Origin: Gammaproteobacteria bacterium
Lineage (GTDB): Bacteria; Pseudomonadota; Gammaproteobacteria; UWMA-0217
Direction of reading: 5' to 3'
Length of the DNA stretch: 37,218 nt
Assembly (NCBI GenBank): GCA_026981985.1
Contig: JALSHZ010000144.1
Location: 1 to 37,218, forward strand
Part shown: positions 11,915 through 26,458 of the stretch, one piece after another
How positions within the stretch are numbered: position 1 is the stretch's first letter
How the letters are laid out: each line of letters begins with the position of its first letter
Made by a program: the position numbers and the translations under genes
The notes under the pieces: generated by a model
What the model was told of the DNA's origin: nothing
The model's database searches: none
Seen by the model: the letters and a program-made list of their open reading frames with translations, nothing else

Positions 11915-11923
11915 CTTTGTATT

Positions 11924-13756
11924 TCATTTGCGAGGGCTCGCTACCACCGGAAGGGTAATCACGACTTCAGCACCTTCACCAGGCAAGCTGTCGATCCCGA
12001 TCTGGGCATCCATCAAGGCGGCGCGTTCACGCAGGCTGACCAGACCCATTCCCCTTTTCGCCTGAGGCGAGTCGGGCGCATTGCTATCAAAGCCATTGCC
12101 ATCGTCGCGGATGCAAAAAATGATGCGCCCGCTGGCTTGCTTCAAGCTCACGTCGATGTGCCGGGCTTTGCCGTGGCGGATGGCGTTATGAACGCTTTCC
12201 TGAAAAATCCGGAACAGCTGGGCTTCGGTTTCTTTGTCCAATACGACATGCTCATCGATTGCCGTATCGATCGTCAGGCTATTGTGCAGGGCTTGCAGAT
12301 GTTGCGCTTCGTCATGGATGGCCACCGCCAGCCCACGCTGGTCCAGTTGCACGGGGTGCAAGCCGCTCAGCATGCGTCGTAACGCCACAATGGCGTGGTC
12401 CAGTTCGCGGCGGATCCCATCCAGTTTTCCATCCGCCTTGGACTGGCCCGCCAATTGGGTTTGCAGCTTCGCGCTGGCCAGTGTTTGTCCGATGCCGTCG
12501 TGCAGTTCACGCGCCATCCCGGCATGGATATCGTCGGCGATCTTCACGACGCGCCGTGACAATGCCCTGTAGTCCACCTGCATCTGTTGCAACCGGGCGA
12601 TATAAGCGTAGAGCAGGGCATAGCGGTAGAACAAGCTGCCGATCTGCACGTTGCGGTGGCCAAAAAACACGTCCGGCAACCATTGGGTGCGGATCGAGAG
12701 GATATAGGCTGCCACCGCCAGCAATTGCGGCCAGGCGGCAATGCGCCGTTGCCTGACGCCCAGGATGGCGCAGTACAGTGCATAAAGCAGGGAAAGTGCG
12801 GCAATGCTGCTGTACAGATACCAGGCGAGCGTTTTCGTCGCATTGCCAACGCCGGGCCATAGTAGCAGCAGGCTGGCCACGGCCCAGATCACGCCGAGCC
12901 CCGCCAGCAGGTGCGCGGGTACATTGCGATATTGGGCGTGAAAATAAAGCGCGATGCCCGGCGGCACGCCAAGCATTGCCAGCGCCATCAGGAAGTTGGC
13001 ATGAATCTCGATGCCGGTCAGGTAGAAAATATCGTGGCCAGCCGAGCCCATCAGCATGAGCAGGCTGGTGATGAACAGCCATTTGAATTCAGGAAACAAC
13101 TGCTGGCTTCGACGCAACAGCAACAGGATCAGCAGCAGATCAACGATACCCAGGGTAATGAACACCGCATCCGCAATGCCTGTGCGCAGCCACGCCTGGC
13201 GCTGTGCCGCGGCCAGTTGCTCCTGCGGCCCGATCCGCAGATCCCCACCGACAATGCCAGCCCCGCCAGGAAACAGCGCCCCCCAGGCCGGGCCAAAACC
13301 GGTGCTGGTGCGAATGTGCAGCACATTGTCCTGCGCCTGCAACAGTCCCGCTGGGATGGGATAGACCCGCATGGCAGCTTGCGGATTGGTGGCCCGAAAC
13401 GTCCACGGTGGTTCAAAACGGCCTTCGCCGCCGATGACCTGCCCGTTGAGCCAGGTTTCATCGGTGTGGCGCAGTTGATCGATCGCCAGCGCCAGCGGTT
13501 CAGGATGCTGGCTTGCGTTCCAGTCGAAGCGCAGCCGGTACCAGCCACTGATCGGTTGGCCATGTTGCTGTGACAGCAGCCCCGGAACATCAACGGCATG
13601 CCACCCGCTGCTGTCGGCAGCGGGTGGCTGCGCGGGGTCAGAACCGGCGACATGGAACTGCCAGACTCCATCAAGCCGCGGTGATCCAGCCGCGAGGGCC
13701 GAGGCATCCGTTAGCAGCATCATCAGCAGACAAAGGACTAGGGCAATACGAAGCAT
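11924..13756 (-). CDS. Sensor histidine kinase with extracellular jelly-roll and 7TM region
   Basis: A 610-residue membrane kinase. In order: signal sequence ([15 protein letters not shown]); an extracytoplasmic beta-sandwich (about 25-170: [30 protein letters not shown]) resembling the N-terminal sugar-binding domain of glycosidases and of 7TMR-DISM receptors; about seven membrane spans (about 190-390); a HisKA_3 dimerisation segment with phospho-acceptor His419 in [11 protein letters not shown]; and a HATPase_c domain with DDGNGFD and [11 protein letters not shown]. The start at 13756 is chosen because it opens the signal peptide; frames upstream look non-coding. Its partner is probably the regulator at 10680. 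It is divergent from the surface-protein gene, with 207 bases between them. The ligand is unknown; carbohydrate is a guess from the fold. Confidence 0.85.
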
Positions 13757-13963
13757 GGGGGTCAGCGTAATCGCTATGGCGAATACGCCACAGTAACAAT
13801 ATGTGTCACGGTTCGTAAATGGAGGCGAACTGTCGGAAACGACAGTTATGGGGTCGGGGTGGATGGGATAGTGTCGTCTGGAATGGCGATTTTCGTCGTG
13901 GAACAACTCCGCCAGGGTGTAATCGTACGAGCACTATCTCGATCAAGAGTCAAGGAACGAACA

Positions 13964-16900
13964 ATGAAAAAACTATCACGGACTTTTCCAAAGATGTTCA
14001 TGCTGTTGGCAATGGGACTTTTTTCGGGATGGGTTTATGCCGCCGGCGTTCCCAGTCATTGCACCATCGGCTTCGCGGAGTACAGTGGAAACCTGCCAAC
14101 TTGGTCCGAAGTAAAAGCTGATAATCGAGGGTACATCGAGAACAACGGCGCCTGGGACCCCAACGCGAAGGTAGGTGTTCCCGACCTGGACAACCTGGGC
14201 AATGAATTCCCATTGACCGATTCCATCGAGAATACGGTCAACGTCATCAGCAACCTGCTCAATGCCAAAATCTTGCCAACCGTGGCCTCCAAGGTGATGG
14301 ATCCGTCCACCCAGGGTATCGCAATGTGTGCCACGGGTACGGCCGCCAACGGTGACTTGGCCGTCTCCGTGACGTTGCCGGTAACCTTCTGCGATTTTTC
14401 CGTGGCTTGCCCATCCGGCAGTGACCGGGTGTTGTGGGTTCCACAAACCGTGGATTTTCTCCATAAACTCAAGGTGCCTTCGCCCTCGGGAGGGCAGGTG
14501 GACCTGTTCGAGGTGCTTCAGGCGGCGTCATCGGGCAGCGGCGGGCAGCTCCCTGCTGGATTGTCCCTCAACGCCGATAACCAAGTAACGTTCAGCACCC
14601 AAGTCCCGGCCGATATTGCCGACGCCTCCAAGAAATGGACCAAGAAAGTGGTGCAGTTCCTCGACACGGTGTTCGGCATGTCGGTGGCCGACATTGTGGG
14701 GCCAGCATCCACGGCATTGAGCAATTTGCAAAGCAAGGCCGGCGAGCTCACCGCCGCGATCGATAATTTCACCAAGCAGGTCAACCTCTACGGCGAGGGT
14801 TATCACCTGGGCGCCATGGACAATACCCGCCCGAAACTTCATACCTGTATCGGCTATTACGGCCACGGCGTGCGTTCAGAGCTGGCCTCCATGCTCGATG
14901 GCAATATCAGCATTGCCTCACGCTACAAGTCCAAGGAAGTGTCCAAAGACTTTAAAGCCCAGGCACGGCTGGGGCTGACCGAAATTGGGCTATTCGGTAA
15001 AAACCTGAGCCTGATGGCCGCGCCAGAGGTCAATATTCAGTTCGACGGCCTCGCCAGCTTCGACTGCGTGGCACCGTTCGGTATTCCCATGTACCGCGAG
15101 TCCGGTTCCGCAGAAGGCTTGTGCATCCGTAGCTTTGGGACCAGTGCGTTCCCGCAGGTCTGTGATGCCACCGAAGGCGATGACGAATACGCCGCCATTC
15201 CTCAGAGCGCCATTACCTCTGGAAACGGTCAGAGTGTTATTTCCGGCATGGTGGATCATTTCCCCATCAGCCTTGACGGTCAGACCGTGGTGTGGCCCCG
15301 TTACACCCCGCCAGCGACCAGCGATCCCTTGAACCCGGCCGGTTACGACTTCCTCAAACCTTACCAATCGTTCTACCCGGATGACCCGAACACGCCGGAA
15401 AACGAAGCTGACCCCAAACTCGATATCAACCACTCGGTGCTCTCGGCCGGTCTCAACTGGGCGTATGAGGCGGGATTGTCCGATCCGCACCCCAAGCTGC
15501 TCTACACCATTCCCATCGTGCCACCGTTCAGTGCCGAGCTGCGTTGGGACTTGGACTGGGGCCTCAGCTGGTTCCATGATTCCAACTACATGCGTGGCCG
15601 GCTCGCGGATGCGCTGGATACGTCCTCGGCCGCCTCGGGCATCGATGTGGATACGGTCTTCGACCGCCCCATGCACCCTTTGCAGGCCGAAGACTTGACG
15701 GCGGAAAACGGCAACAAATACTACATCGATCCCGCCTTTATGCTCGCCGCCGGCTTCACTTATACGCTGCCGCCATCGCGGCCCAAGGTCTTTGTGGATA
15801 TCACCGCGGATGTCGGCTTGTATCCCCATGCCGCTCTTGGCTTCGCCTCCGGCATTGCCGATACCGGTCAGGCCATACAGGATGCGTTGGTCAATAGCAG
15901 CAGTAATGATGATCTACCTTGTGAACCCATCACCGAGTGGAATGACGGCCCGCAATCCTGCTCCGGCAACTGGCTCGACACCTCGCCACAAGCCCTTGCC
16001 GGTAAACAGATCGAGCAGGCGTCCTATTCGCACACCGGTTCGGTGACGCTCAGCAATGGCACCATCACCACGCAAACCGAGCTTCGCATCAAACGCAGCG
16101 ACTTCGATGCGGCAACGCAGCATGGAACGGTACCCACGCCGTATTACCGTTATGCCTGCAGCACCACCTCGCCATTGGTGATGTACCTCTACGAAGACGA
16201 TGGCACCACCGCCGTGCAGAACGGTGATCAACGTGTCACCGTGACCGTGGAATACCGTTCTTGCGAGAAATACGTGCAGTGTAATATCAGCAACGGGGTA
16301 TCATCAGAGACCTTGGTGGTCAACGGTGTAGCCGCGTGCGAAAGTCTCAACTCTGACGACAATACCGCCACCGCCTTGCCGCTGCAATGTACCGGCCTGC
16401 AGCAGCCGACGACCACCGGATGGCAAGGACCAGGGTGTTCATCACTGGTCAGTGATTCCGGCTATCCCACCGCACCCGGCGGCGCCTGTGACCTGGATTC
16501 CGCCGCGCAGCAATGCGACAACGGTTTTGCCTGCGTCGATGGCGGCTGCCTCACCCAATGCAACAGCGACAGCGATTGTGCCAGCGGAGAAATCTGTGGC
16601 ACCACGGCATCGGGCATTCAGGCTTGTCAACTGGCCAACGGCGCGCCCTATGCCGAGCAAATCGGCTGGTTGGCCGCGCATCCGGACAACTCTCAACCAC
16701 TGCATGCCGTGTGGACCCATGCCATTGCCGAAGCGGAAGCGACGGTCAACTTCGGGGTGGGTATCAATATCCGCGCCATGCTCAAGATCTTCGGCAAGAC
16801 CATCAAACTGGTGGACAAGCGCTGGGACAAATACTGGGAGTTGTTGGCCAAAAACGTACTCAAGTATCAGGAAGGCCTGGAAGCCCAGTACACCAGCGAG

Positions 16901-18640
16901 TGCGCCCCGACCGGTACGGTAACCGATCACCAGCCCAGTGAAATCAGCCGTGTGCTCGATACCTTGGCAGGTCAACCGGCCAGCGGTACCGAAATCACCA
17001 TCGCCTCCGGTCAAACCACCTCGGATGATTTCATCCAGGCCTGTGAGGATGACATCAAATCACGTACCGAAGACCCCGACGACGATATCAGTGTCGGCGC
17101 CTTGGGTGATTCGGTTGAATCCGCCGCCGAATTCTCCGAAGAGGTGGCGCTTGAAATGTGGAACACCTACCAGGGCGAAGTGTGCGTCAACGGCATTCCG
17201 TACAACGAGTTCCTCGCCAACCTCTATACCGGTAGCGTGGTCAACGGTAATGGCACGGTGTACCTAACCGGCTCGGACGGCTCCAACACGTTGCTCGATG
17301 GCAATGCTTCACTGGCCGTGGCCATGAACTCCGGTTGTCTTGATGATGGCCAGAGCTATTCGGGCGTCAGTCAGAGCTACCTAAACAACCTACCTCACAG
17401 CAATGGCATGGTAGACATCGAAGCGATGATGCTGGACACTGACGCCGACTTTGTCGTCAGCAATTTCCGGCCGCAATACATCGCAGGGTTTGGTTTTGGC
17501 AGTAGTGCCGCTAACTGGCACGCCGGTGTACTCCAGTGCATCGAAGATTACGTGGCCAACACCGACTTCGAGCTAGGGAACTTCGAGGTAGGGCCCTGTG
17601 ACGAGTCGCCAAACGAAGATGACCCGGACGGCGACGGCTATCCCTCGGTCAAGGACAACTGCCCCACGCTGTACAACCCGGATCAGGCTGACACGGACGG
17701 CGACGGCATCGGCGATGCCTGTGACAACTGCCCGCATGATGCCAACCCTGACCAAGGTGATAGCGACAACGACGGGGTCGGTAACGCCTGCGACCTGATT
17801 CGCGACGAGGTGATCAGTTTCCGCGACGATTTCGACTGGAGCCACATTTTGATCCAAAGTGGTGATGGTGGAAACGGCAGCGGCGACAACGGTGGGGAGC
17901 CGGATCTACCCGGCGGCCATACCGGCGTGGTTATCAACCCGGACATCACCCTGGAAACCGTGGAAGTCCCCGGTTTCGTGGTCGACGGAGGGTACCTCGA
18001 CCTCAAAGGCAAGCACATGGTCGTTGATGGCGATCTGCGGATCGCCAACGGCCGACTGGTGCTCAACGGTGGCACGCTGACGGTTAAAGGCAGTTTGCTG
18101 CTCGAGAGCGACGTGCGGGGAGCCGACGGTTCCTACGCCGCCGATGCCCTACTGGTGATGACGAATCCCAAGGATCGTCTGATCGTGGAGAAAGACGTGG
18201 TCATCAATGCCCATCAGTCCAGTGAGAAATACCTCACCGCTGGTACGATGGAGGTCAAAGGACATTTCATGCAGCTGGCTACCTCGAAGCAATCACCGGA
18301 TACAGCCAAGCAGAACTTTGCGCCAACTCGCGATCATCGCGTGGTGCTTTCCGGAGAACAGGAGCAGCATGTCTACTTCGCCTCCGCGGGTGAAAACCAG
18401 TCTCGTTTTAACGATCTAATGCTGGAAAACAAAGGGGAGGTCGTTTTTGACAGCGATATCAAGGTTCTTGGCGACTTCACGGACAATGGAAATGGTTTTC
18501 GTTCTACTGATGGGGTTGAAGTACCTCAAACGTCAGTAAAGCCCGTGAAGCGCGGTGGCGGTGGCGCACTTTGGATTGGTTGCTTGTTGTTGCTCGCGGG
18601 ACGGCTTTGCGTGAAGCGGCCTCGCTATGCGACCCAGTGA
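13964..18640 (+). CDS. Large secreted surface protein with TSP3 repeats and GlyGly-CTERM-like tail
   Basis: A 1558-residue exported protein. The start at 13964 has AAGGAACG upstream and opens a signal peptide ([20 protein letters not shown]...YAA). The first about 830 residues are unique with scattered Cys. A Cys-rich, EGF-like stretch spans about 838-885 ([20 protein letters not shown]). Calcium-binding thrombospondin type 3 repeats lie at about 1220-1278 ([40 protein letters not shown]). A repetitive beta region at about 1335-1500 ([29 protein letters not shown]) suggests a beta-helix. The end is GGGG, a hydrophobic span and a basic tail (1528-1558), the layout of GlyGly-CTERM rhombosortase substrates. 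It is therefore probably surface-anchored or released. The function is unknown. Two sensor-kinase systems flank it. A longer in-frame start at 13859 would hide the signal peptide. Confidence 0.85.
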
Positions 18641-18662: not shown

Positions 18663-19334
18663 TCAGGAAGTGGCAGATTCCCCGAGTATGTCCTCCACCG
18701 GTTTGATAATGCCGTGGCGCATGGCGAGTCGGACGAGTTCGGTACTGTTGTGGACGTTCAGCTTGGCTTTGATCTGGGTGCTGTAGTTGGCGACGGTTTT
18801 GTAGCTCAGCGCGAGTTCGCTGGCTGCTTCGTGAGGAGACATGCCCTGGGCGAGCAGGCAGAAGATTTCGAATTCGCGGGTGGTCAGGCAGGCAAATACG
18901 TCTTCATCGGCATGCGATTTTCGCAGGGCCATGTTCTGGGCGAGTGTTTTGTCGAGGTAGGATTGCCCGGCGGCGACGGCGCGAACGCCATCGAGCATGA
19001 TTTCCGGGGCGCAGTTCTTGGTGATGTAACCGCGTGCGCCGGCTTGCATGGCCTTTTCGACGAAAGCGATGTCATCGTGCATGCTGAATACGAGGATGGC
19101 GGCAGACTTGTCGCGCGCTATGATGCGTCGAATGGCTTCCAGGCCACCGATGCCAGGCAGTGACAGATCCATGACCACCACAGACGGGTTTTGCTGCGCG
19201 AACAACTGGCAGGCCTGTTCACCGCTTTCGGCTTCGGCGACGACCTGGATGTCGGGCGCAGCGTCGAGTAGCGAGCGATAGCCCGCGCGAACAACAGCGT
19301 GGTCATCGACCAGCAGTACCCTAAGTGCTTTCAT
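18663..19334 (-). CDS. NarL/FixJ-type response regulator
   Basis: A 223-residue response regulator. The receiver domain (4-120) has Asp10-Asp11, phospho-acceptor Asp56 in SVVVMDLSLPG, and the conserved Lys in GYITKNCAP. The LuxR-type helix-turn-helix (about 150-210) contains LTTREFEIFCLLAQGMSPHEAASELALSYKTV. Its start overlaps the end of the kinase gene by 14 bases, so the pair is co-translated and they are almost certainly cognate. It converges on the surface-protein gene, whose stop is 22 bases away. Targets cannot be told from the sequence; UvrY-like global regulators share this layout. Confidence 0.92.
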   Translation of the reverse strand: MKALRVLLVDDHAVVRAGYRSLLDAAPDIQVVAEAESGEQACQLFAQQNPSVVVMDLSLPGIGGLEAIRRIIARDKSAAILVFSMHDDIAFVEKAMQAGARGYITKNCAPEIMLDGVRAVAAGQSYLDKTLAQNMALRKSHADEDVFACLTTREFEIFCLLAQGMSPHEAASELALSYKTVANYSTQIKAKLNVHNSTELVRLAMRHGIIKPVEDILGESATS

Positions 19335-20664
19335 TGTTTTGCCTCGTTTCTGTGGTGGCCGGAATGACGAGATCGATCTTTACACCGCGGCCTGGAATAC
19401 CAACAAGGGATAAGTTCCCGTTGCAGGAGTCGGCCCGATTCTGCATGCCGGACAAGCCCATGCCCAGTGGTCGCGTGCGGGCATCGAATCCCTGGCCGTC
19501 GTCCTCGATATGCAGGGTGATCCTGCCGTCGCCACTACGTTGCAACAGGATTGTGACGTTGCCGGCACGTGCGTGTTTGGCAATGTTCGTCAATGCTTCC
19601 TGGACGATGCGATAGATGTGTATGCTGATGTCATCATCCACCGTATTGAAATCGCCATTGACGCTGAGTGCCGCGAAAGTATTTTCATGGATGCTGTTCC
19701 AACCATCCACCAGACGCTCGATGGCGGTCGCCAACCCCAATTCATCGAGCACCACCGGTCGCAGCCGATTCATCATGCCGCGCACGACGGTGTACATGTG
19801 GTTGCAGATGTCGACGATCGCCTCGGCACCGTTCTGGCTGCCGGGGCAGGATTGCGCCAGTGATGCGGATTGTGCCTTGATGGCGGTGATCGATTGGCCC
19901 AGTTCATCATGCAGCTCCTGGGCCATATGTCGCTGGTTGGCTTCGAGCATTTGCAGCATGCGCCGGCTCAGCGCCTTGTTCTCGGTTTTTTGTCGATCCA
20001 GCACCGATGCCATGTGATTGAACTTTTGTGATAACTGGTTCAGCTCGGGCAGGTCGAACGCAGGCAAGCGTGCCTTGTAATTACCATCTTGGATAATGTC
20101 CAGGCCGGACGAGATCTCGTTGACCGGTTGCAATGCCCGTCGCACGATCAGCCACGTGAGCACAACGCTGAGTGCGGTGAAGAAGCCAATCAGTACGAGT
20201 ATCGTGCGTGTATCCTTCCACACCCGACCGATTTCATGGCGTGGATCGGGTGTGATGGTGATTTCGACCGGCGTTTCGCTGCTATTGAATTGGCGACGGT
20301 ATTCCCGAACACCGGGTGTTACCATTTTTTCGAACCAAAATGGCGCCATGTTGTCGTGTGGGCTGGGGGAGATGGCGACCGTGTGTGGTAGGGCATACCC
20401 GGCTTGGCGTATGGTCAGGTTCAGGTCACGCAGCTGTTCTATTCTGGAGAGCTCCTCGACAAGCACCTCCATCGGCTTGCGCTCTGGCATGGCGTCACTG
20501 CTGAGAAATACCGCCGATAGCAGTTTCATGATTACCTCGGCGTTGGCATCCAGCTCGCTGGCAACGCTTTCACGAGCATTCTTGACCACCAGCAGCGCAC
20601 CGGACAACACCATGGCCGCAACGATGGCAAGGATCAGTAGCATGATTCGAGTGGCGAGGTTCAT
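19321..20664 (-). CDS. Sensor histidine kinase (HAMP, HisKA_3)
   Basis: A 447-residue membrane kinase cognate to the overlapping regulator gene. The N-terminal membrane span (about 7-28), periplasmic sensor region (about 30-150, no domain recognised), second span (about 152-175) and HAMP linker (RRALQPVNEISSGLDIIQDGNY) are followed by a HisKA_3 helix with phospho-acceptor His252 in MAQELHDELGQS, and by a HATPase_c domain with EDDGQGFD and GMGLSGMQNRA. The ATG is 27 bases after the stop of the HAD/2PGK-like gene on the same strand, so it may belong to the ppsA transcription unit. No strong ribosome-binding site is visible. Confidence 0.9.
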   Translation of the reverse strand: MNLATRIMLLILAIVAAMVLSGALLVVKNARESVASELDANAEVIMKLLSAVFLSSDAMPERKPMEVLVEELSRIEQLRDLNLTIRQAGYALPHTVAISPSPHDNMAPFWFEKMVTPGVREYRRQFNSSETPVEITITPDPRHEIGRVWKDTRTILVLIGFFTALSVVLTWLIVRRALQPVNEISSGLDIIQDGNYKARLPAFDLPELNQLSQKFNHMASVLDRQKTENKALSRRMLQMLEANQRHMAQELHDELGQSITAIKAQSASLAQSCPGSQNGAEAIVDICNHMYTVVRGMMNRLRPVVLDELGLATAIERLVDGWNSIHENTFAALSVNGDFNTVDDDISIHIYRIVQEALTNIAKHARAGNVTILLQRSGDGRITLHIEDDGQGFDARTRPLGMGLSGMQNRADSCNGNLSLVGIPGRGVKIDLVIPATTETRQNNEST

Positions 20665-20691: not shown

Positions 20692-23148
20692 TCACTCCAT
20701 TGCCAGTTGCACCTCCCAGGTGCTGCGTTCCTGCAGGTCTTTCTCTACCTGGTCCCGTAGTGGGTCATCGATCTTCAAGCCGCGCTCGGCGAAGGGGTCG
20801 GCGACACGTTTGACAGCCTGGCTGATGGCCTCGTCGAGGTTGCCACTGTTGTCGATGACCAGTTTGCGCGCACGTCGGCCCATGGTCACGAGATGATCAT
20901 GGTTGTGGCGGATCGCCGCGAAGTGTTGTTGGTAGCGCTGTGAACCGCCGCGTTGCACCCCCGTTTCGCCACGGGTGGCGAGGCGCTCATAATGCAGCTG
21001 TTCGTCACTGACACTGACAATGAGCCAGACGATGTTTGCGGATTCGAAATAGCGTTCGGGTAGCGTACCAGGGATCAAGGCGACGCCGTCGATGACGGCG
21101 GAGATGTTTTCCTTCACCAGGCGATCGATACTGCCGATGACACCCACCATCGTCAGCATGGCGTGGGTATAGAACCAGTGCAGCGAATCCTTCTCGAAGG
21201 ATGATCCGAACAGCTCGGGAAAGGTTTCCTGTGCTTTATGTTCGCCAAGCAGAAAACGCATCGACTGGCGCATGACGGAACGTGACGCGACATCGGACGA
21301 AAATCCGGTCGGTATCCCCATTTCCAAAGAAATATGCTGCGAAATCGTGGATTTTCCGACACCGGAGGTGCCTGATACGAGGACAATGGTGGGTTTGTCG
21401 AGATCCTTGAAATGGGGCGTGCGTTCCAGCCGTGGCGCCAGCCAGAGATAGAAATCGTGGAACTTGGCAGTGTCGAGATCGGGAAATGCTGCCAGCAGCG
21501 CGGCATCCGTCATGATCATGCGTTGCAGGTCGAGTCGCTTGCGGCACCATTTCGCATGTTTTTCGAAATAGTGGTCGATCATTTCTTCCAGGCTATAGGC
21601 CCAGTTATTGACGATGCTTATCGCGTGATCGAACTCTTCCTGGGGATCTTCGGGGGTGCAAGCCTGAATCAGCGCCCAAAGCTGTTCTGCCATCTCGTCG
21701 ACGCCGCCAATATCCCGAAAGCGGCTGCGTATTTTTTTCGGTTTCAGGTTGGTCTGGTCGAGCAGCAATTGTTGCAACAATGCTTTGATTTCGGGCAGAA
21801 GAAAATGCTTGAGTTGTTGTACAACATGCGCACGATCTGCCTGTTTACTGTAATCGAACAGTCCCAAAACGATTTTTCGCGCATGATCGTAAGGCCAGGT
21901 TTTCAAAGAGGATAGCCGGGATACCAGTGTATATTCGGTTTTTTTCAGTTTTTCCTGATACTTGCGTGCGCGTGTGAAAGGGTCGCGAAGGCGTAAATGC
22001 AACGCCAGCAAAAAATCGGTGGAAATCTGCTCCAGCTGTTCTGGCGGCAAAGGGCAATCGTCATCGCACTGGGTGACAAAGCGTTCGATGTCCCGGCGAT
22101 AGCGGCGTTCCTGAGCGATGTGCGGCAATTGCTGAAGCAGTTGTTGCCAACTGTCTCCCTGCTGGAGCCGGGTGCAGATAGCTGTCATCCATTGCCACAG
22201 CGCTTCGGTCTGGACCCCACCATCGATCACGCCGGGGTCTTCACGCTCACCGACGGATAGCAGCACGACCCCGTCGATACGGCGTACCGAATCGTCATTG
22301 CCGCCGCGGTAGAGTTCATTGCCGCTGAACAGGATAGCCCGGGCAGGGATGCCCATATCGAGCAGATCCTCGGCGGCCCGCGCCTTGTCGTTGCCCTCGA
22401 GTACCAGCTTGATGCCACGGGTGGCGTGGCGGTAGGGCATGATCACTGCACCGTCACCGAGTGCGCGCAGCTGGTCGAGCTGTTGCAGCCTTTGCTGCAA
22501 ATGGTCGTTGAGTAGTGAACGCTGACGGGTTTCGCGCTCGCCCTTGTAGTGTTCGACGGAAATGTCGCCGAGCATCATCCAGCTGACGGCGCCGCCGCGA
22601 AAAAATGTCTGCGCCCGGGACGGGTCGAAGCCAGCCTCGGCGAGCAGTGTTTCAAGTTCATCGATCAGGCAATTGTCGGTTGCGAAACCGCCATGCCTCA
22701 ATGCTGTGCTGGCGGCATCGAGTCGCTTTTCCAGTGCCGCTTCCTCCTGCGTTTGTTGCAGTGCAGTGCGCAGGCGAGTCGGGCCGATGATGGCGAGCGC
22801 CTGTGCGGTCGAAAAATGGCGTTCAAAATCGGCGTCGTGCTGCCATGCTTTACTGTCAGGATCGAAAACGTGTTTGCTGCTACCTTCACCGCCGTAATAA
22901 ATAACATGGTCGAGTACATCGTCGGGCAGGCGAAAGAGAAGGCGTGGTCCCATTTTATCGATGGCGACGCCGCTGACGGGTGCCCAGGCGATATGGTGTG
23001 TTTTCAAAACACGGATAAATTCGCTGAGTTGCCTGATCTGTTCATCGCTGGGGCGTTCGCCCGATTTGAACAAAGTGTCGTCAACGTCGGTCAGCCAGGC
23101 ACCTTGATAATTCAATTGTCGGTGATCCAGGGTTCCCTCTGCCTTCAT
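20692..23148 (-). CDS. HAD phosphatase / 2-phosphoglycerate-kinase-like fusion protein
   Basis: An 818-residue, two-enzyme protein. Residues about 14-330 look like a HAD-superfamily hydrolase: motif I TDVDDTLF gives nucleophile Asp21 and Asp23, and a late GNDDS block sits near the expected metal-binding motif. Residues about 340-580 are mostly helical and unrecognised. Residues about 585-790 form a P-loop kinase with Walker A GTSGVGKST at 593-601, then a GIPTGFSSDVASRSVMRQ segment and IDGVALIPGTL, a pattern like archaeal 2-phosphoglycerate kinase (2-phosphoglycerate to 2,3-bisphosphoglycerate). It starts 12 bases after ppsA, so the two are co-transcribed, which fits a substrate around phosphoglycerate/PEP. 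Catalysis by either half is inferred, not shown. No signal peptide or membrane span. Confidence 0.8.
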   Translation of the reverse strand: MKAEGTLDHRQLNYQGAWLTDVDDTLFKSGERPSDEQIRQLSEFIRVLKTHHIAWAPVSGVAIDKMGPRLLFRLPDDVLDHVIYYGGEGSSKHVFDPDSKAWQHDADFERHFSTAQALAIIGPTRLRTALQQTQEEAALEKRLDAASTALRHGGFATDNCLIDELETLLAEAGFDPSRAQTFFRGGAVSWMMLGDISVEHYKGERETRQRSLLNDHLQQRLQQLDQLRALGDGAVIMPYRHATRGIKLVLEGNDKARAAEDLLDMGIPARAILFSGNELYRGGNDDSVRRIDGVVLLSVGEREDPGVIDGGVQTEALWQWMTAICTRLQQGDSWQQLLQQLPHIAQERRYRRDIERFVTQCDDDCPLPPEQLEQISTDFLLALHLRLRDPFTRARKYQEKLKKTEYTLVSRLSSLKTWPYDHARKIVLGLFDYSKQADRAHVVQQLKHFLLPEIKALLQQLLLDQTNLKPKKIRSRFRDIGGVDEMAEQLWALIQACTPEDPQEEFDHAISIVNNWAYSLEEMIDHYFEKHAKWCRKRLDLQRMIMTDAALLAAFPDLDTAKFHDFYLWLAPRLERTPHFKDLDKPTIVLVSGTSGVGKSTISQHISLEMGIPTGFSSDVASRSVMRQSMRFLLGEHKAQETFPELFGSSFEKDSLHWFYTHAMLTMVGVIGSIDRLVKENISAVIDGVALIPGTLPERYFESANIVWLIVSVSDEQLHYERLATRGETGVQRGGSQRYQQHFAAIRHNHDHLVTMGRRARKLVIDNSGNLDEAISQAVKRVADPFAERGLKIDDPLRDQVEKDLQERSTWEVQLAME

Positions 23149-23160
23149 TGTTCGCTACCG

Positions 23161-25521
23161 TCAATCGCTCGATTCGGCGAGCATCAGCCAGGTGGTGGTT
23201 ACCGTGTCCGGATTGAGCGACACGCTGCTGATGCCATGCTCCATCAGCCAGCGTGCAAGGTCGGGATGATCCGATGGCCCCTGGCCACAGATGCCGACGT
23301 ATTTGCCTGCGTCCCGGCAGGCGGAAATGGCCATCTCCAGCATGGCGAGGACGGCGGGGTTACGCTCGTCGAATGCCGCTGCCACCAATGAGGAGTCGCG
23401 ATCGATCCCCAGCGTCAGTTGGGTCATGTCGTTGGAACCGATGGAAAAACCATCGAAATGTTCGAGAAACTGCGAAGCCAAAACAGCATTCGATGGCAGC
23501 TCGCACATCATGATATGGCGCAGGCCATTGTCACCGCGCGCCAGGCCGTTGTCCGCGAGCAGTGTGGTGACGGCTTCTGCCTCATGCAGTGTGCGCACAA
23601 AAGGGATCATCACTTCCAGGTTTGTCAGGCCCATTTCGTTGCGCACGAAACGAATCGCTTCGCACTCCATTTCGAAGCAGGGCTGGAAGTCGGCAGAGAT
23701 GTAGCGCGCTGCGCCACGAAAACCGATCATCGGATTTTCTTCCCGTGGCTCATACAAGTCGCCGCCGAGCAGGTTGGCATATTCATTCGATTTGAAATCG
23801 GACATCCGTAGAATAACGGGTTTGGGCGCGAACGCAGCGGCAATAGTGGATACGCCTTCGATGATCCGTTTGACGAAATAGTCCCGCGGGTTGCCCCAGG
23901 CCATTGTGCGTTGCTTGATTTGTTGCTGCAGCGCCGGTTCGAGGCTGGCGTATTCGAGCAGCGCACGCGGATGGATGCCGATCATGTTGTTGATGATGAA
24001 TTCCATTCGCGCCAGCCCGACACCCTGATGCGGAAGCTGCGCAAAATCGAAGGCGCGTTCGGGATTGCCGACATTCATCATCACTTTGACATCCAGCTCT
24101 GGCATGTTCGTCAGCTCGGTGCGAGCTACTTCGTAGTCGAGCATGCCTTCGTAGATGTAGCCCGTGTCGCCTTCGGCACAGGAGACCGTCACGTCCTGGC
24201 CATCGGGAATACGGCTGGTCGCATCACCGCAGCCGACGACCGCCGGCACGCCGAGTTCGCGAGCGATGATTGCGGCATGGCAGGTGCGGCCACCGCGGTT
24301 GGTGACGATGGCCGAAGCGCGTTTCATGATGGGTTCCCAGTCGGGATCGGTCATGTCGGTCACCAGCACGTCACCGGGCTGCAGGCGATCCATTTCATCG
24401 AGACTGTGAATGATATGGGCAGCGCCTGAGCCGATTTTGCTGCCGATGGAGCGGCCTTCCGCCAGCACTTTGCCACGTTCCTTGAGGCGATACTTTTCGA
24501 TCACCTTGCCGCTTTGACTTTGCACCGTTTCCGGGCGCGCCTGCACGATATAGAGTTCGCCATCGATACCGTCCAGCGCCCACTCGATGTCCATTGGCCT
24601 GCCGTAATGCTGTTCGATGGTGACGGCATGGCGTGCCAGCGCCTCGACCTGCGCGTCCTCGATGCAGAAACGTAGCCGCTCGTTCGGATCGCTGTCGACG
24701 ATCTGCACGGGTTGCTCGCCACTGGCGTAGATCATCTTGATTGCCTTGGCGCCCAGATTGCGCCGTAAGATGGCCGGCCGACCGTCAGCGAGCGAGGGTT
24801 TGTACACGTAGAACTCGTCTGGATTGACCGCGCCTTGTACCACCATTTCACCCAGCCCGTAGCTACCAGTGATGAACACTGCATCGCGAAAGCCCGATTC
24901 CGTATCGAGCGTGAACATCACGCCGCTGGCGGCCAGATCCGACCGAACCATTTTCTGCACCCCGGCAGACAGCGCCACCTGGTGGTGGTCGAACCCCTGG
25001 TGTTCGCGGTAGGCAATGGCACGATCGGTGAACAGTGAGGCGAACACCTTGCGCAGGGTGCGCTTGAGGTTATCCAGCCCCTGAATGTTGAGATAGGTTT
25101 CCTGCTGGCCGGCAAAGGAGGCATCGGGTAGGTCTTCGGCGGTGGCTGAGGAGCGCACGGCCCAGCTGGTGCTTTCGCCATATTCGCTGATCAGCCGTTG
25201 CCAGGCCGCGTCCAGGGCTTGTTCGAATGCCGGCTGCAACGGGGTTTCCAGCACCCACTGGCGAATCTGTCGGCCAGTGGCTGCCAGGGCGGTTACATCA
25301 TCGATATCCAGCGCGTCGAGTGCAGCGGCGATGCGCTGATCCAGGCCGTCATGGGCAAGGAATTCACGGTAGGCATGCGCAGTGGTGGCAAAGCCACCCG
25401 GCACGCGGATGCCGAGTCCGCCGAGGTGGCGCAGCATTTCGCCGAGCGAGGCGTTCTTGCCGCCAACCTGGGCGATATCCCCGATAGAGAGCTGGTCTAG
25501 CCAGATGATGTAGTCGTTCAT
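23161..25521 (-). CDS. ppsA: Phosphoenolpyruvate synthase
   Basis: Makes PEP, AMP and phosphate from pyruvate and ATP, the entry to gluconeogenesis. The 786 residues (E. coli 792) contain the ATP-grasp domain (1-345), the swivelling phosphohistidine domain with catalytic His415 in [18 protein letters not shown], and the C-terminal PEP/pyruvate-binding barrel ([19 protein letters not shown], and CGQGPSDHP with the catalytic Cys). GGGAGAA precedes the ATG. It is followed at 12 bases by the HAD/2PGK-like gene and preceded, 74 bases upstream on the same strand, by ppsR, whose product controls this enzyme by threonine phosphorylation next to the catalytic His; that Thr is present as the T of GGRTCH. 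Confidence 0.96.
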
Positions 25522-25595: not shown

Positions 25596-26396
25596 CTAAT
25601 TCCGTGATTTCATGATTTTTGCGGCCAGTTCCTCGATGGAGCTGTTCGTTGTTTCCAGCGGCGTCAGACGGTAACGGTCGAACAGCCGTTTGGCGCTGTC
25701 CACCTCGGCGCGGCAAGTCTCTCGTGATGCGTAGCGGCTGCCTGGCCGCCGCCTCTCCCGGATCTGGTGCAGGCGCTCGGGATCGATGCTGATGGCCACC
25801 ACCTTGTCGATGTGTTGTTCGATGGCTTCGGGAAGCCGCCCCTTGACGAAATCGTCCTCGGTCAGTGGATAGTTGGCGGCCTTGAGACCGTAGTGCAGGG
25901 CCAGATAGAGCGAGGTGGGTGTTTTGCCCGAGCGTGACACCCCGATCAGGATGACATCTGCCTGATCGAGTGATTTGAGCGACAGCGCATCGTCGTGGCT
26001 GAGGGCATAGTTGACGGTGTCGATGCGCGCTTCGTAGTGGTTCGTGTTGACCTGGCCGTGGGTTCGACCGGTGGCGCGGGACGGTGCTACGCCGATGTCG
26101 GCGGCGACGCTGGGAATAAACCGTTCGAATATTTCATAGTAGTGGCAGGGTGCATTGCTCAGGAGCCGATCGATCTCACGATCGGGCATTGTGGCGAAGA
26201 CCAGCGGTTTGCGCCCGGTACTCTCCGCCAGCCGCTCCAGCTCATGAATCAATGCTTCAGCCTTTTCGCGGGTATTGGTGAAAGGCAGGTAGTGGCGTTC
26301 GAAATCGACGCCAGGGAATTGCGTCAGCAAGCTGCTGCCAAAGGTCTCGGCGGTAATGCCAGTGCTTTCGGAAACAAAATATACATGCTGAATCAT
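25596..26396 (-). CDS. ppsR: PEP synthase regulatory kinase/phosphorylase
   Basis: Bifunctional regulator (formerly DUF299) that phosphorylates PEP synthase with ADP and removes the phosphate by phosphorolysis. The 266 residues start MIQHVYFVSESTGITAETFG and contain the P-loop GVSRSGKT at 152-159 followed by SLYLALHYGLKAANYPL, the family core. The start at 26396 matches the family and has GAGGAAA upstream; an in-frame ATG at 26438 adds 14 unlike residues. Here it lies upstream of ppsA on the same strand, rather than divergent as in E. coli, so regulator and target may share a transcript. Confidence 0.95.
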   Translation of the reverse strand: MIQHVYFVSESTGITAETFGSSLLTQFPGVDFERHYLPFTNTREKAEALIHELERLAESTGRKPLVFATMPDREIDRLLSNAPCHYYEIFERFIPSVAADIGVAPSRATGRTHGQVNTNHYEARIDTVNYALSHDDALSLKSLDQADVILIGVSRSGKTPTSLYLALHYGLKAANYPLTEDDFVKGRLPEAIEQHIDKVVAISIDPERLHQIRERRRPGSRYASRETCRAEVDSAKRLFDRYRLTPLETTNSSIEELAAKIMKSRN

Positions 26397-26458
26397 CTGA
26401 CCGAGTTTCCTCGATTCCAGGGTTTCGTGGCAATCCAATCTAACCTATCATCACCATT

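Follow-up and report, generated by a model that had tools for sequence, protein, structure and literature searches.

What would a protein do that joins a HAD-type fold and a P-loop kinase in one chain and is encoded directly behind PEP synthase, where entry into gluconeogenesis is controlled by PpsR? The gene in question lies in a 37,218-nucleotide stretch of a gammaproteobacterial contig (JALSHZ010000144.1; hereafter the window), and an initial annotation had read its product as an enzyme that makes and/or removes a bisphosphoglycerate-type metabolite and so tunes the PEP/2-phosphoglycerate (2-PG) node. We find that interpretation reasonable and partly supported but too specific, and we set out below which parts of it stand and what wider function the evidence may point to.

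Architecture, conservation and rarity of the fusion

The open reading frame encodes 818 residues from an ATG start and comprises a HAD domain, an all-helical middle domain and a kinase resembling 2-phosphoglycerate kinase (2PGK), as laid out in Table 1; the AF2 model of the whole protein has a pLDDT of 89.8 and a pTM of 0.79. It is not a chance frame, since full-length homologues with 48-73% identity over ~800 residues are present in five other Gammaproteobacterial genomes. Purifying selection acts on the gene: between the window and its congener L002 the whole fusion gives a pN of 0.18 and a pS of 0.63, with a pN of 0.11 for the kinase part. Mean pairwise identity among the six Gammaproteobacterial copies is highest in the kinase (68%), followed by the HAD (58%) and the middle domain (36%). 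The primary features read earlier from the letters, namely TDVDDTLF with Asp21 and Asp23, the GTSGVGKST motif and the 12 bases from the ppsA stop to the fusion ATG, were all confirmed. The ~240 residues left unassigned at that time are residues 334-578, which have no family match in Pfam and are all-helical in the AF2 model. A copy of this middle domain accompanies every kinase unit of the ‘Deltaproteobacteria’ and Omnitrophota proteins, and the VIA matches listed covered only the kinase and none of the middle.

The fusion is rare. It was found in 5 of 369 Gammaproteobacterial genomes, and surveys of three other phyla, each sample including its own starting genome, gave 1 of 237, 2 of 297 and 1 of 247, so the linkage statistics given below rest on few genomes. 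All members from the related-locus search are metagenome-assembled genomes (MAGs), no cultured organism with the fusion was identified among the genomes surveyed here, and a search for plasmid-borne copies returned none.

Table 1. Positions in the window of the fusion gene, its domains and motifs, and the neighboring genes
Feature	Residues	Position	Strand	Basis or remark
HAD – helical linker – 2PGK-like kinase fusion		20692..23148	-	ORF, homologues, AF2 model
HAD domain, HAD-IIB/PMM-type fold	14-330	22159..23109	-	VIA alignment and profile match to 4bnd
HAD motif I, D21-V-D23 (nucleophile, acid/base)	21-23	23080..23088	-	Both Asp invariant in 14 sequences
HAD motif II, S59	59	22972..22974	-	Invariant in 14 sequences
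HAD motif III, K255 (GNDK)	255	22384..22386	-	Invariant; aligned to GQNKE of 4bnd
HAD motif IV, GGND (Mg2+ site)	282-285	22294..22305	-	Invariant; aligned to PGGND of 4bnd
All-helical middle domain	334-578	21415..22149	-	AF2 secondary structure, alignment
2PGK-like P-loop kinase	579-790	20779..21414	-	NCBIfam PRK04220 match, fold
Walker A, GTSGVGKST	593-601	21346..21372	-	Sequence
ppsA, PEP synthase (pyruvate, water dikinase)		23161..25521	-	12 bp upstream; TIGR01418 1176 bits, over cut-off
ppsR, PEP synthase regulatory kinase/phosphorylase		25596..26438	-	NF049928 E=2e-101; PRK05339 over cut-off
Sensor histidine kinase		19321..20664	-	27 bp downstream; HAMP, HisKA_3, HATPase_c
LuxR-type response regulator		18663..19334	-	Overlaps histidine kinase gene; Response_reg, GerE

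The two catalytic halves

The N-terminal half had been assigned to the HAD superfamily, and here the four motifs and the HAD fold bear the assignment out, while profile searches found no Pfam or NCBIfam family above threshold. Specifically, D21, D23, S59, K255, N284 and D285 are invariant in an alignment of 14 sequences drawn from Gammaproteobacteria, ‘Deltaproteobacteria’, Omnitrophota and Spirochaetes, in agreement with motifs I-IV of the superfamily (DxD, S/T, K and (G)ND). Three members scanned against NCBIfam at E=0.01 gave no match to the HAD, and Pfam, run at E<=1 on all 14 members, gave only sub-threshold matches, chiefly to Hydrolase_3, and none to the PMM (phosphomannomutase) family profile; the fusion thus brings to light a HAD family that has no model in either collection. 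A profile search with the HAD reached the HAD-type alpha-phosphoglucomutase of L. lactis (4bnd, E=8e-10), which at the level of sequence shows a distant kinship. The predicted fold is a Rossmann core with a C2b cap (type IIB) and aligns in VIA with 4bnd_A over 239 residues (Z 21.3, rmsd 2.7); phosphomannomutases and trehalose-6-phosphate phosphatases follow, and the top matches, which also include Cof-type HADs, span Z 15-21. This likeness marks the domain as a small-molecule HAD, whose type is probably that of the sugar- or polyol-phosphate enzymes. It shares with 4bnd and the eukaryotic phosphomannomutases the order of the motifs and the GGND of motif IV, but identity is only ~18%, the fusion HAD has ~317 residues compared with 252, and its motif I is DxDDT where that of PMM is DxDGT.

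One reading that follows the HAD is a mutase with its own cofactor supply, in which the HAD would be a phosphomutase of the PMM/alpha-PGM type and the kinase would make the priming sugar bisphosphate. The nearest relative of the HAD fits such a role, as does the fact that in two spirochaetes (L007 and L015) the HAD adjoins genes for alpha-D-phosphohexomutases, but the missing PMM match in Pfam, a kinase that resembles 2PGK rather than any known sugar-1-phosphate kinase, and a linkage to ppsA that is left unexplained make it very doubtful.

The spirochaetes provide a view of the HAD by itself. Seven of their genomes contain the domain, usually joined to a second domain of the HAD-IA type, and the kinase unit has no match in any of the seven, hence the HAD can function without it, and the fusion need not combine opposing activities. 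The surrounding island (L006, L007, L008, L010 and L015) contains a beta-propeller phytase, an ABC importer of the aminoethylphosphonate/sulfate type, a PhnP-like hydrolase and RpiR regulators, together with phosphohexomutases, TIM-barrel proteins, an HD protein and a HAD pair, and a gene of the inositol-monophosphatase family lies near the spirochaete HAD genes. By its gene content this island looks like one for the salvage of organic phosphate, and such a context suggests that the HAD on its own acts on a sugar or polyol phosphate, by dephosphorylation or by rearrangement.

For the C-terminal half, the best match of all families tried was NCBIfam PRK04220 (2-phosphoglycerate kinase), with E=2e-31 over residues 579-788 and model positions 85-294 of 306, so that the P-loop kinase core is matched across the kinase domain of that family. 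The score against this model (NF003259) is 109.5 bits (111.4 in the genome search) and does not reach the curated equivalog cut-off of 343 bits, and it is for this reason that we regard the kinase, as judged from its sequence, as a member of the 2PGK-like superfamily that is not assignable to 2PGK itself. The first 84 model positions, which in archaeal 2PGKs form the ATP-cone, are unmatched, and the helical middle that precedes the kinase has no family match. Compared with the archaeal enzymes (PRK04220/COG2074), with which it shares the aligned core, the fusion kinase therefore scores a third of the equivalog cut-off, lacks a match to the N-terminal region, is fused to a HAD and is bacterial. 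Further NCBIfam matches were to PRK12337 (another 2PGK model), PRK12338 and PRK12339 (mevalonate-3-phosphate 5-kinase); 2PGK and mevalonate-3-phosphate 5-kinase both phosphorylate small molecules that are already phosphorylated.

Every Pfam match to the kinase half stays below the gathering score of its model. The proposal that this half is closest to 2PGK was open to challenge from zeta toxin, gluconate kinase or another P-loop family, and it withstood that comparison: zeta toxin (PF06414) gave 15.1 bits against a gathering cut-off of 22.3, confined to the P-loop at residues 577-611, and the matches to other small P-loop families were likewise weak and P-loop-confined. The predicted fold is a generic NMP-kinase/gluconate-kinase core (Z about 13) and does not discriminate by itself, as the alignments to adenylate, UMP/CMP and gluconate kinases score alike, with Z about 12-13; PFKFB chains were among the weak Foldseek matches of the kinase part. 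In an alignment of 12 kinase units the glycines, lysine and serine of the Walker A motif are invariant, and so are Arg623, Arg627, Arg676, Arg722 and Arg747 (numbers converted from alignment positions), a set of arginines that would fit a strongly anionic acceptor.

Recurrent association with dikinases

In the window the same-strand genes ppsR, ppsA, fusion, histidine kinase and response regulator are separated by 74, 12, 27 and -14 bases, spacing from which a single transcription unit from ppsR to the response regulator is likely, with ppsR as its likely first gene. The linkage to the histidine kinase was not seen in the relatives. Beyond this unit, positions 13859-18640 on the plus strand contain a 1593-residue ORF whose N-terminus is secretion-like and whose repeats resemble the calcium-binding ones of thrombospondin type 3. 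With neighbor genes named from their translations, ppsA lies directly upstream of the fusion in four of the six Gammaproteobacteria (the window, L002/G001 of the same genus, L003/G134 and G126), while in L004, where the fusion follows a prpD-like gene, and in G003 it has no such neighbor. PpsR is encoded beside ppsA in the window and in L003.

The association recurs in two further lineages. In three ‘Deltaproteobacteria’ MAGs a protein of 1.5-1.6 thousand residues consists of two middle-plus-kinase units followed by the HAD, and two of these MAGs also show the following gene, which encodes a PPDK-type dikinase of ~1600 residues that combines a PEP-utilizer mobile domain with an ATP-grasp of the PPDK_N family at the C-terminus; the swivelling His is kept, with LSHAQLTARTFGKP aligned to the PpsA counterpart. 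In the ~1600-residue dikinases at L033:4682-9442 and L013:8345-13255, in which no PEP barrel was detected, the mobile His domain stands before the C-terminal ATP-grasp, an order familiar from glucan water dikinases. In the Omnitrophota MAG STB_25 (L005/G370:C26, about 1.479-1.567 Mb, minus strand) these parts are found in one open frame of 29,111 residues, in the order dikinase half (11916-12748), kinase 1, kinase 2, HAD 1, HAD 2, the other half of the ‘Deltaproteobacteria’ partner (15212-15900) and a complete cofactor-independent phosphoglycerate mutase (iPGM), where residue numbers run from the first base of the stretch examined and not from the true start. The iPGM of this chain is the sole iPGM match of its genome. 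The frame also has scattered nitroreductase, RNHCP, cytidylate kinase-like, AA kinase, HATPase and methyltransferase domains, and long stretches of it have no Pfam matches.

The linkage to ppsA, on which the earlier interpretation depended, thus extends to relatives, as ppsA or a ppsA-like dikinase accompanies the fusion in three lineages. Chance does not readily explain such an association, even though the independent lineages are few, and the association may stem from shared inheritance or from transfer of an old gene group. No PEP-binding barrel was detected in the ‘Deltaproteobacteria’ and Omnitrophota dikinases, and PEP therefore need not be the shared link; what is common to all lineages is the dikinase module of ATP-grasp and His domain rather than PEP binding. 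This commonality, and the presence of the parts in cis in Omnitrophota, would suit a regulator acting on protein, a second PpsR in which the kinase and the HAD would phosphorylate and dephosphorylate the dikinase itself. We consider that improbable, given that PpsR already sits beside ppsA in the window and in L003 and that small molecules are the usual substrates of NMP-kinase-type domains and of PMM-type HAD domains. PpsR (PSRP) resembles the fusion in being a genomic neighbor of ppsA, but it is a separate, already present gene of an unrelated family. The position of the fusion beside dikinases in three lineages suggests a further layer of control, or a side pathway, of central carbon metabolism.

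A proposed metabolite switch

We tentatively propose, as a reading that we favor while holding it at somewhat below even likelihood, that the fusion is a bifunctional metabolite kinase/phosphatase that, together with PpsR and PpsA, sets the level of one compound during flow from pyruvate to PEP. The C-terminal P-loop domain would use ATP to convert a small phosphorylated acid or polyol to a bisphosphate, and the N-terminal PMM-type HAD, via a phospho-enzyme at Asp21, would take off or shift a phosphate of that compound or of a neighboring one. The helical middle would join the two domains and might have a sensing role. The fusion would be made together with PpsR and PpsA so that the level of the compound is set when carbon runs from pyruvate to PEP. 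The analysis shows the domain architecture, the intact catalytic motifs, the purifying selection and the recurring company of dikinases. From these we infer the opposing activities, the bisphosphate product and the link to PEP flux, and that the HAD and the kinase act on the same compound is suggested by their fusion. The logic would be that of PFK-2/FBPase-2 with another phosphatase module. That enzyme also has a kinase and a phosphatase in one chain, but the analogy is functional only, as the phosphatase of the fusion is a HAD (no histidine-phosphatase domain was matched in Pfam), the domain order is reversed and nothing points to fructose-6-phosphate. In its boldest form, which we think unlikely, the proposal describes an undescribed switch that would be the bacterial equivalent of the fructose-2,6-bisphosphate system: the one-chain HAD and 2PGK-like kinase would produce and degrade a regulatory bisphosphate, and this compound would control PEP-synthase-type dikinases, with the dikinase fused to the switch in Omnitrophota. 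Of 35 open papers that mention 2-phosphoglycerate kinase, the 30 listed describe no fusion of this enzyme with a HAD in their titles or abstract openings.

A special case of the metabolite switch is that the kinase is a genuine 2PGK converting 2-PG to 2,3-bisphosphoglycerate (2,3-BPG), which the HAD removes, so tuning the PEP/2-PG node as first suggested. This is the leading named candidate reaction, in that 2PGK is the best family match, ppsA is adjacent and the Omnitrophota protein has an iPGM after the module. It is nevertheless doubtful as an identification: the equivalog cut-off is missed widely, hexose-phosphate mutases are the nearest relatives of the HAD, the dikinases outside Gammaproteobacteria have no detectable PEP barrel and the spirochaete HAD occurs without the kinase. 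The mutases also bear on it. The window genome has three full-length iPGMs (G000:C121, C91 and C31), which are independent of BPG, and the BPG-dependent enzyme (dPGM), which normally uses 2,3-BPG, has no match there or in G001, G134 and G369, the mutase of these genomes being the BPG-independent one. Hence, 2,3-BPG is not needed as a mutase primer, although it could still regulate. The sister species of the window has three iPGM copies as well, and several relatives have two.

Reports on rice extend the range of substrates discussed for such kinases. LPA1, a 2PGK homologue likened here to the fusion kinase by description, is proposed to be an InsP1 kinase (PMC4844318, PMC7020182), an activity that is only proposed, and the portions of these reports drawn on here mention no HAD for it; the parallel shows only that substrates beyond 2-PG are under discussion for 2PGK-like kinases. 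By this analogy the fusion kinase would act on an inositol phosphate and the HAD on a related ester, and the phytase and inositol-monophosphatase-family genes near the spirochaete HADs are in keeping with this. However, the spirochaetes with the phytase neighborhood have no kinase, no inositol gene was recognised near the fusion in Gammaproteobacteria, and inositol-1-phosphate synthase was found in none of the 17 genomes tested, which speaks against inositol phosphate made de novo; of the alternatives we judge this one highly improbable. The absence of dPGM from the window genome weakens the case for 2,3-BPG as a primer, and that of inositol-1-phosphate synthase from the 17 genomes weakens the one for inositol made de novo. 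The fusion nevertheless offers a bacterial context in which to test the unsettled substrate range of 2PGK-like kinases, plant LPA1 included. As a separate observation, a plasmid of Deinococcus sp. QL22 carries a 2PGK-like stretch that has no annotated gene on its strand (L043:8001-8420) and lies ~1.4 kb from a gene for 5-deoxy-glucuronate isomerase, an enzyme of inositol catabolism.
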